Shown here piece by piece: positions 1-4,109 of a DNA stretch of 33,738 bases (positions within the stretch are counted from its first letter, which is position 1; each line of letters begins with the position of its first letter). This DNA is from Lentisphaerales bacterium. Its GTDB lineage: Bacteria; Verrucomicrobiota; Kiritimatiellia; SPBP01. The notes under the pieces are model-generated. The model was not told where the DNA came from. It did no database searches and saw only the letters and a list, made by a program, of their open reading frames with translations. Both the position numbers and the translations under genes were made by a program. The stretch spans positions 1-33,738 of the forward strand of contig SPBP01000002.1 of the NCBI GenBank assembly GCA_004525935.1, read 5' to 3'.

Positions 1-32
1 ATACTGTAGCCGGAGGGGCGTAGCGAATTGTG

Positions 33-96
33 CATGGCCAAGGAACGCGAAGCAGGAATAGCGGCGCTATTTCGATGCAGCGTGACGCTGGCCATG
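33..96. repeat. Nested inverted repeat
   Basis: CATGGCCA at 33-40 is matched exactly by TGGCCATG at 89-96. Between them lie a perfect 6-bp hairpin (AATAGC-GGC-GCTATT, 57-71) and the near-palindrome AGCGT-G-ACGCT (about 79-89). No T-tract follows, so it is not a standard terminator. Confidence 0.5.
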
Positions 97-105
97 TGCA
101 ATGCA

Positions 106-122
106 GTAGCCAAAACGGCTAC
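106..122. repeat. Short perfect hairpin
   Basis: GTAGCC (106-111) pairs with GGCTAC (117-122) across the loop AAAAC. It is one of several small hairpins in this gene-free stretch. Role unknown. Confidence 0.45.
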
Positions 123-178
123 AGGATTATTGAAACTGCTCTAGAAGGCCATATTCTTTCCGTCCAGCAATTCCCTCT

Positions 179-202
179 ACCCACAGATTCTCCGGAGGAC
201 CC
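179..202 (+). repeat. Dispersed 24-nt repeat, copy A
   Basis: The 24 nt beginning ACCCACAGATTCT match 3433-3456 at 21 of 24 positions in the same orientation. The first 13 nt are identical. Both copies sit in gene-free, hairpin-rich spacers. Confidence 0.5.
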
Positions 203-2963: not shown

Positions 2964-3036
2964 CCGGAATTTCTGTCGGCAACCTGCTACCAGGAGAGCT
3001 TTCACAGAAGGCCGCACTTGTCCGCCTGTTATTGAG

Positions 3037-3080
3037 CCATTTGGCAGTTGCCCCTACAGGTTGTGTGTCCTGCCAAATGG
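3037..3080. repeat. 10-bp inverted repeat downstream of membrane gene
   Basis: CCATTTGGCA at 3037-3046 is the exact reverse complement of 3071-3080. An outer CACTTG/CAAGTG pair (about 3015-3020/3083-3088) extends it. It lies about 75 bp past the stop of the zinc-ribbon membrane gene and could end its transcript, but there is no T-run. Confidence 0.5.
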
Positions 3081-3098
3081 AGCAAGTGTAGGTAGCGA

Positions 3099-3125
3099 CA
3101 TATGGTGTTCGAAGAATGCCATATG
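3099..3125. repeat. 7-bp inverted repeat
   Basis: CATATGG (3099-3105) pairs with CCATATG (3119-3125) across 13 nt. It is a neighbour of the 3037-3080 hairpin. Role unknown. Confidence 0.4.
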
Positions 3126-3165
3126 GCGTTACCTCCAGCGGAAGATCATTGGTTCGGCCGAGACC

Positions 3166-3402
3166 GACAAAGCGGCTCGATTAAGCGTAACCAAGTAAGA
3201 GTGGAACTACGTGTGCGATGAAGTGTAGGGGTAACAGGAGTAGCAACTGTGGCGCAACTATTTAGCCATGAGGATCTGGACGTTTATCAGGCAGCGCTCC
3301 ACCTCGTGACTTGAAGGTCGCAGCCCATGACACTTAGTCCCTCCCTTCACCGTACACTTCATCCCATACTTACTTGGTTACGCTTAATCGACCAGCTTCG
3401 TC
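3166..3402. mobile_element. Inverted-repeat-bounded, MITE-like element
   Basis: The ends form an inverted repeat of 34 nt with 31 matches (3166-3199 against 3369-3402). Its inner 23 nt (3177-3199 and 3369-3391, beginning TCGATTAAGCG) match perfectly. After a roughly 12-nt indel a further 11 nt pair exactly (GATGAAGTGTA at 3217-3227 against 3353-3363). Inside lies a ribosome site and the first 20-odd codons of a four-helix-bundle gene. The size (about 237 bp), terminal inverted repeats and decayed cargo resemble a non-autonomous mobile unit or a relic of a 23S-rRNA-type intervening sequence. No target-site duplication was evident and no transposase is present. Confidence 0.5.
3249..3314 (+). 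pseudogene. Truncated four-helix-bundle (23S rRNA IVS-type) gene start
   Basis: From a GTG with AGGAG eight bases upstream, the frame reads 21 residues containing LFSHEDLDVYQAALHLV and then hits TGA. The F-x-x-EDLxVYQxA pattern is the N-terminal signature of the four-helix-bundle proteins encoded in 23S rRNA intervening sequences and in free-standing genomic copies (about 110-130 residues). Only the first helix survives; the rest is absent downstream. The intact translation start and the flanking inverted repeat suggest internal deletion within an element, not gradual decay of a chromosomal gene. Confidence 0.6.
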
Positions 3403-3432
3403 GTTCTTGAGCTTGGAAGAAACCCATAATCC

Positions 3433-3456
3433 ACCCACAGATTCTGCGCAAGACCC
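3433..3456 (+). repeat. Dispersed 24-nt repeat, copy B
   Basis: Matches 179-202 at 21 of 24 positions, same orientation. It lies between the inverted-repeat element and the end of coaB. Confidence 0.5.
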
Positions 3457-3476: not shown

Positions 3477-4109
3477 CTATGGCCCGCGGCTTTCGATCCA
3501 CTGAACAATCCTGCCGGCAAGTTCCTGTTTTGTCATGAGCACAGGGGCCCCGGGCTTGGCCGAGGCGGTGATGAGGGTGGCCATGTTTGTGTCGGACTCA
3601 AAACCCGAATCCGGCCGTGCCACATCATTGGCAACAATGAGGTCTAGTTTCTTTGCGACCAGTTTGCGGGATGCTTCTTCCAGCAGGTTGCCGGTCTCCG
3701 CCGCAAAGCCGACGAATATGCGTGAGCCTTTTGCCGGGGCAATGGTTCCAAGGATATCCGGCACGGGTTCGAGCTGGAGGTTCCGCGGCATGTTGTTCTT
3801 CTTCAGCTTTTCGGCAATTACCTCCGCGGGCCGCCAGTCGGCGACGGCCGCAGCCATGACAAGCGCATCGCACCATTCGAGTTCCCGGCGGACGGCATGC
3901 AACATGTCGTCGGCTGTTTCCACTGTTATCACGCGCGGGATCGCCGACAGGTCCACGGAAACCGGCCCGGCAATAAGCGCCACCTCGTGTCCTCGTTCGA
4001 TTGCCGTGAGTGCAAGGGCAAGCCCCATCTTGCCGGAGGATCGGTTTGAAATGAAACGAACGGGATCAATCGGTTCGCGGGTGGGTCCGGCTGTTATGAG
4101 TATCTTCAT
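3477..4109 (-). CDS. coaB: Stand-alone phosphopantothenoylcysteine synthetase
   Basis: CoaB joins 4'-phosphopantothenate and cysteine, using CTP in most bacteria, as the second step from pantothenate to coenzyme A. The 210 residues correspond to the C-terminal (CoaB) half of the usual bifunctional CoaBC/Dfp. Visible motifs are ITAGPTREPIDPVRFISNRS at residues 5-24 and the SSGKMG that follows, with N22 as the acyl-cytidylate-binding Asn, AAAVADWRP (86-94), and KLKK (101-104) holding the catalytic lysine. The CoaC (decarboxylase, flavin) half is not fused and not adjacent, so it should be encoded elsewhere. The start has GGTGAG upstream. The pantothenate gene panB lies at the far end of the window. 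Downstream, CGGGC-TATG-GCCCG overlaps the stop codon. Confidence 0.9.
   Translation of the reverse strand: MKILITAGPTREPIDPVRFISNRSSGKMGLALALTAIERGHEVALIAGPVSVDLSAIPRVITVETADDMLHAVRRELEWCDALVMAAAVADWRPAEVIAEKLKKNNMPRNLQLEPVPDILGTIAPAKGSRIFVGFAAETGNLLEEASRKLVAKKLDLIVANDVARPDSGFESDTNMATLITASAKPGAPVLMTKQELAGRIVQWIESRGP

Follow-up and report, generated by a model that had tools for sequence, protein, structure and literature searches.

A remnant of a probable transposase-less mobile element with ISL3-type terminal repeats and a four-helix-bundle gene set between inverted arrays

Mobile insertion cassettes (MICs), which include those built on IS231 ends, and MITEs are the closest described counterparts of the locus analysed here. 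With ISL3 MITEs and MICs it shares ISL3-type terminal inverted repeats (TIRs), 8-bp target duplications, the lack of a transposase, a passenger gene in the long form and short deleted forms. It differs in its passenger, a four-helix-bundle (4HB) protein whose gene lies within inverted tandem arrays and is under purifying selection; we found no such cargo in the open-access papers searched, an absence that is weak evidence. The 23S rRNA intervening sequences (IVSs) encoding S23p/IVP, suspected selfish elements known for example from Coxiella burnetii (PMC4990558), likewise carry a 4HB ORF enclosed by inverted repeats that form a long stem when folded. That paper treats two ideas on S23/IVP as hypotheses, a remnant of transposition or a mobile element with a mobility-serving ORF, and quotes a report that Xcc0516 forms a pentameric ring. 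Avd of diversity-generating retroelements (DGRs) belongs to the same 4HB superfamily, and our 4HB query matched annotated Avd genes. Finally, intergenic arrays of 7-nt units have been described as the cyanobacterial heptanucleotide STRR and the Nostoc and Xanthomonas heptamer repeats (PMC4692102) and as the TAACTGA repeats of Beggiatoaceae (PMC4679880). Genes for 4HB, S23 or IVP proteins come up in neither publication, and the arrays are likened here by description.

The preliminary description of the window, that is, of the whole 33,738-nucleotide stretch analysed, reported an inverted repeat pairing at 31 of 34 positions (3166-3199/3369-3402), with 23 exact pairs at 3177-3199/3369-3391 and 11 more at 3217-3227/3353-3363, around a ribosome site, a GTG and a 21-residue frame with a family signature that ends in a stop. 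Every number was reproduced, and the ribosome site and the frame, which carries the 23S_rRNA_IVP signature, were confirmed by reading. Extended without gaps, the arms (3161-3234/3334-3407) reach 77% complementarity, and none of 200 shuffles folded as stably as the RNA of 3150-3420 (z = -7.4). The 34-nt repeats had been taken for the ends of the element; they are in fact inner arrays, and the true terminus is a 24-nt ISL3-type repeat further to the right (Table 1). The left-arm array also occurs in other families of the class.

Table 1. Features of the element remnant and of a neighbouring terminal repeat, in window coordinates
Feature	Position	Strand	Details	Basis
Remnant element	3136..3456	+	left-truncated, internally deleted, transposase-less; ISL3-type right end	borders from sharing with C178, C275, C489
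Left arm	3165..3234	+	degenerate units of about 12 nt (CGACAAAGCGGCT CGATTAAGCGTAA CCAAGTAAGAGT .. GCGATGAAGTGT)	
Ribosome-binding site	3236..3240	+	AGGAG, 8 nt upstream of GTG	direct reading
4HB gene start	3249..3314	+	21 codons, GTG at 3249; translation MAQLFSHEDLDVYQAALHLVT, then stop	
4HB gene end	3314..3337	+	last seven codons and stop (KVAAHDT, TAG)	C-terminus matches L216, L212, L213
Right arm	3334..3407	+	inverted array of the left arm's units of about 12 nt	pairing analysis
Right TIR, type 1	3433..3456	+	ACCCACAGATTCTGCGCAAGACCC, 1 mismatch to consensus	junction with unique flank
Second type-1 TIR	179..202	+	ACCCACAGATTCTCCGGAGGACCC, outer end of a further element that the contig start truncates	

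The right side of the remnant is common to C178 and C275 and its left side to C489, and the flanks differ beyond the borders. The left sides of the window copy and C489 agree only to position 3136, where a different palindrome begins, and C489 reaches a type-1 TIR about 100 nt beyond that border, which shows the window copy to be truncated on its left. A systematic scan found no left TIR and no target duplication for it, and a DNA search with the left flank returned short repeat matches only. To the left of the element, at 3010-3145, stand further palindromic repeats (CCATTTGGCAG.. and GGTAACGCCATATGG..) that mark the left breakpoint; the latter has a copy in C486 (L098), listed together with C471 (L097) for such repeats. 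The second type-1 TIR, near the start of the window, has about 40 nt of subterminal sequence in common with C489, and a long palindrome (window 1-202) accompanies its outer end.

The remnant is flanked by protein genes, one ending at 2963 and DFP at 3477-4109, and no rRNA match was found in the window. The likeness to 23S IVSs lies in the cargo, which is of S23p/IVP type (PF05635), but the element is not itself such a sequence: it lies outside a 23S gene, has arrays and ISL3-type TIRs as its ends and in full form encodes two 4HB domains. No reverse transcriptase was seen beside it, and the neighbouring genes examined are unrelated.

Related copies reveal the full arrangement, in which an ISL3-type TIR is followed by an array of about 12-nt units, a two-domain 4HB gene, an inverted array and a second TIR. 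This order is seen in the intact L216 and L222 and in the mutated L181. L216 has type-1 TIRs at both ends and a 250-aa two-domain 4HB gene that matches PF05635 in two stretches (E = 1.3e-24). Its stop codon lies within the first unit of the inverted array, and the 4HB stop codon of the window copy likewise sits within the first right-array unit. L216 has no clean 8-bp duplication; L181 combines TIRs matching at 24 of 24 positions and the 8-bp duplication AGAGTTGT (element strand) with a mutated 4HB gene. The complete cargo is accordingly a two-domain protein of about 250 residues and not the gene of about 120 codons that had been expected. The Pfam match, together with the nearest solved chain, 2gsc (Xcc0516), settles the 4HB fold.

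Compared with the two-domain genes L216 and L212, and with C178, the 21-codon frame of the window is the start of domain 1 (VAQLF) fused to domain 2 (HEDLDVYQAAL). The same join is present in C178, another copy of this element, whose cargo is longer (59 codons; PF05635 E = 3.4e-4) and whose right half is 96% identical. The window copy afterwards lost almost all of the remaining domain, C178 the second half of it through the shared GGTCGC, and the stop after its 21 codons was created by deletion. Its cargo had been described as cut back to the first helix; the first 21 codons are indeed there, but so are the last seven, which are out of frame with the GTG start, so that the reading frame is broken. 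Distinct deletions occur in the window copy, C178, L067, L077, L135 and L157. Another Kiritimatiellae genome holds two parallel deletion forms, L135 and L157, together with L137, its gene-less form.

Among closely related intact 4HB genes, dN/dS was 0.04-0.19 where it could be estimated (pairwise NG86), with 0.12 for the close pair L216/L217. By these comparisons, intact genes are under purifying selection at dN/dS of about 0.1, and the 4HB protein therefore does something. A PADLOC search for a defence role gave no match. Within a single element the arms are more alike than arms taken from different elements (32.5 versus 18.9, permutation p = 5e-5), which suggests either that pairing is selected for or that sequence is converted from one arm to the other. 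Identical 4HB genes were noted in two genera of one family (L226 and L227), which could be recent transfer, or binning error or shared-sample contamination.

The source genome (G000; 2.99 Mb in 497 contigs, 90.7% complete) is an assembly that breaks at repeats. By BLAST, a 271-bp stretch of the window has about a dozen more places in it, many at contig ends, as expected because the repeat is unresolved. A pattern derived from the arm gave 24 matches, against 0 for the reversed control. Other places in this genome are gene-less hairpins built of window-type units, and at several of its arrays no type-1 or type-2 TIR was seen. Among 56 relatives the element was present in four, all from other families of the class: G031 and G053 have full-length 4HB genes and G038 a third deletion form. 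In G038, of the same genus, the insertion site of L216 is found without the element. Of the copies sought in the genome and its relatives, those with truncated cargo were recovered in both and those with full-length cargo in relatives. In a single further genome, G338, dozens of array matches represent an expansion of the element family. Short solo hairpins of window-type units with conserved outer sequence (..ATCTGAGACACTT ... AAGTGTGCAATCATTGTCTCA) occur in G053 (L071, L073, L075). Three remnants of a different 4HB element were also noted in the contigs C491 (L043), C295 (L044) and C109 (L047); the left end TGGAGTTTGCGGCGATG is present in two of them and the right end GGGTTGCGGGCGTAGCCCGCGTT in all three, and these ends are hairpin-like, without an ISL3 TIR.

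The 24-nt sequence ACCCACAGATTCTGCGGAAGACCC stands right of the array in the window, C178, C275, L067 and others, after which the flanks are unrelated. Its 20-nt core has 12 copies in the source genome and the reversed control has none. In a scan of GTDB-species contigs the type-1 TIR turned up in over 113 stretches, most of them from PVC bacteria and others from Proteobacteria, a 'delta proteobacterium' and Acidobacteria. Target-site duplications had been proposed as a check, and perfect 8-bp duplications surround 9 of 15 TIR-bounded copies with aligned TIRs (L103, L127, L135, L137, L138, L157, L167, L181 and L222), while none of 240 cross pairs reached 8/8. The gene-bearing L222 lies between TIRs of a second type (GGCGCTTCCGGGTTTGTGGG) and has the duplication ATGTCTCA. 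The array module was found with at least three TIR types, and TIR and array are separable, since 7 of 13 complete type-1 elements have no array. Gene-less 12-mer arrays inside elements with the third TIR type (GGTTCTGTCAA) were observed at L340, L341 and L078; by direct reading, L340 has the 8-bp TCGAAGCC on both sides.

Both TIR types 1 and 2 are identical in kind to those of real ISL3 insertion sequences. Between two type-1 TIRs, L121 encodes a 432-residue DDE_Tnp_ISL3 transposase (PF01610, E = 2.8e-74); L141 is a second ISL3 transposase with a type-1 TIR; in L114 (Pontiellaceae) an ISL3 transposase starts about 70 nt inside a perfect type-1 TIR; and the type-2 TIR bounds the ISL3 gene L244 in G343, of the same class. 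Complete gene-bearing copies hold the 4HB gene alone, with no transposase. A cognate transposase in the genome is to be expected as long as such a family is active, although it is not a strict part of the definition. The 497-contig, 90.7%-complete source assembly yielded no PF01610 gene; among 17 relatives tested, nine have one, with matching TIRs shown only for L244.

We consider the window feature likely to be a defunct copy of a mobile element that has no transposase. The order of parts, the TIRs, the 8-bp duplications, the presence and absence in relatives, the independent deletions and the selection are read from the sequences themselves; because the TIR types are shared with real ISL3 insertion sequences, we infer movement in trans, with an ISL3-family transposase as the most likely mover. 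In a full form of about 1.0-1.1 kb (TIR, short spacer, array, two-domain 4HB gene, stop-containing inverted array, spacer, TIR), such a DDE transposase would recognise the TIRs and carry out excision and insertion, as ISL3 biology suggests. The 4HB protein, if it behaves like the Xcc0516 ring, may bind the array, or the hairpin that it forms, in DNA or RNA form and could help the element to persist or spread. Three losses would have produced the window copy: one between the domains, another internal one, and that of the left end at the palindrome near 3136. The earlier idea of a miniature, non-autonomous mobile unit derived from a full element is borne out by the full and deleted copies (C178, L067, L135, L157, L181, L216, L222), the TIRs and the 8-bp duplications; it does not stand for a class without standard description, as the general kind, MITE or mobile insertion cassette, is already described.

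A plain decayed 4HB gene in a region palindromic by chance would account for the broken reading frame of the window copy, but it can hardly be correct: the ends are conserved, copies recur in the genome, and relatives show like architecture with target duplications. The multi-copy conserved ends refute it. That the feature is a structured RNA or REP-like regulatory hairpin, its short ORF incidental, is improbable. The very stable fold and the numerous gene-less array hairpins would suit such a hairpin, but Rfam gave no match in the window besides two tRNAs, gene-bearing forms are conserved under purifying selection, and TIRs and duplications are present.

A further possibility, which we regard as rather unlikely, is that the 4HB gene and its inverted arrays are the core mobile unit, moving by a mechanism of its own in which the 4HB protein acts on the arrays, that ISL3-type TIRs are secondary in one branch, and that 23S IVSs are members inserted in rRNA. 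Its support comes from lone 4HB genes elsewhere. We compared 28 canonical single-domain 4HB loci of the class and 22 two-domain loci with 87 control ORFs from both. Inverted similarity of the flanks exceeded the control 95th percentile in 89% of single-domain loci (p = 9e-15; mostly with a 7/14-nt period) and in 77% of two-domain loci (p = 5e-8; mostly 12-13 nt). A consensus-like 4HB query that is not a database record, used only to find plasmid genes, led to lone 4HB genes in plasmids of Cyanobacteriota, Bacteroidota and Gemmatimonadota; all ten tested were flanked by inverted 7-8-nt arrays, unlike the DGR Avd gene tested, on a Vibrio plasmid (L308). In Nostocales, plasmids of Trichormus and Scytonema have the element and those of Nostoc linckia and others lack it. 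L300/L314 against L309 gives a clean filled and empty site, with an insertion of about 420 bp running from array through 4HB gene to array, GTAAT duplicated and no ISL3-type TIR seen. The occurrence of the array module with several TIR types also favours this explanation. However, junctions at other compared sites are untidy: in L303/L311-L313, L298/L317, L306/L318 and L316/L319 the arrays coincide with the differing stretch and a clean duplication is absent, and L315/L320 gives a hint of a duplication of about 5 bp with a mismatch. For the sites in Riemerella and Nostoc edaphicum, no relative with an empty site was present among the genomes compared. Moreover, the TIRs and 8-bp duplications of the window family fit a DDE transposase acting in trans, and we know of no catalytic residues or nuclease in the 4HB fold, which counts against the unit as its own mover.

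We tentatively suggest, at less than even confidence, that lone 4HB genes with inverted 7- to 13-nt arrays are minimal mobile elements found across phyla. The 4HB ring and the array would be their working parts, 23S IVSs would be those inserted into rRNA genes, and relics of them would survive as many of the orphan heptamer arrays; the window branch would have acquired ISL3-type ends. The role of the S23/IVP 4HB protein has been open since 23S rRNA IVSs were described, and the array architecture renders the question testable, with gene and inverted arrays, empty sites and ends-only deletion derivatives as concrete, clonable substrates. An origin is also suggested for scattered short tandem repeat arrays, and the window family offers a clear example of ISL3-type ends carrying a conserved gene that is not a transposase. 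The loci with lone 4HB genes between inverted arrays are L268-L297 in the class and L298-L307 on plasmids of the three other phyla. Some 4HB units (L299, L304, L306, L316) stand between nrdB and nrdA, cas6 and cas4, or cas10 and cmr3, that is, within operon-like runs.
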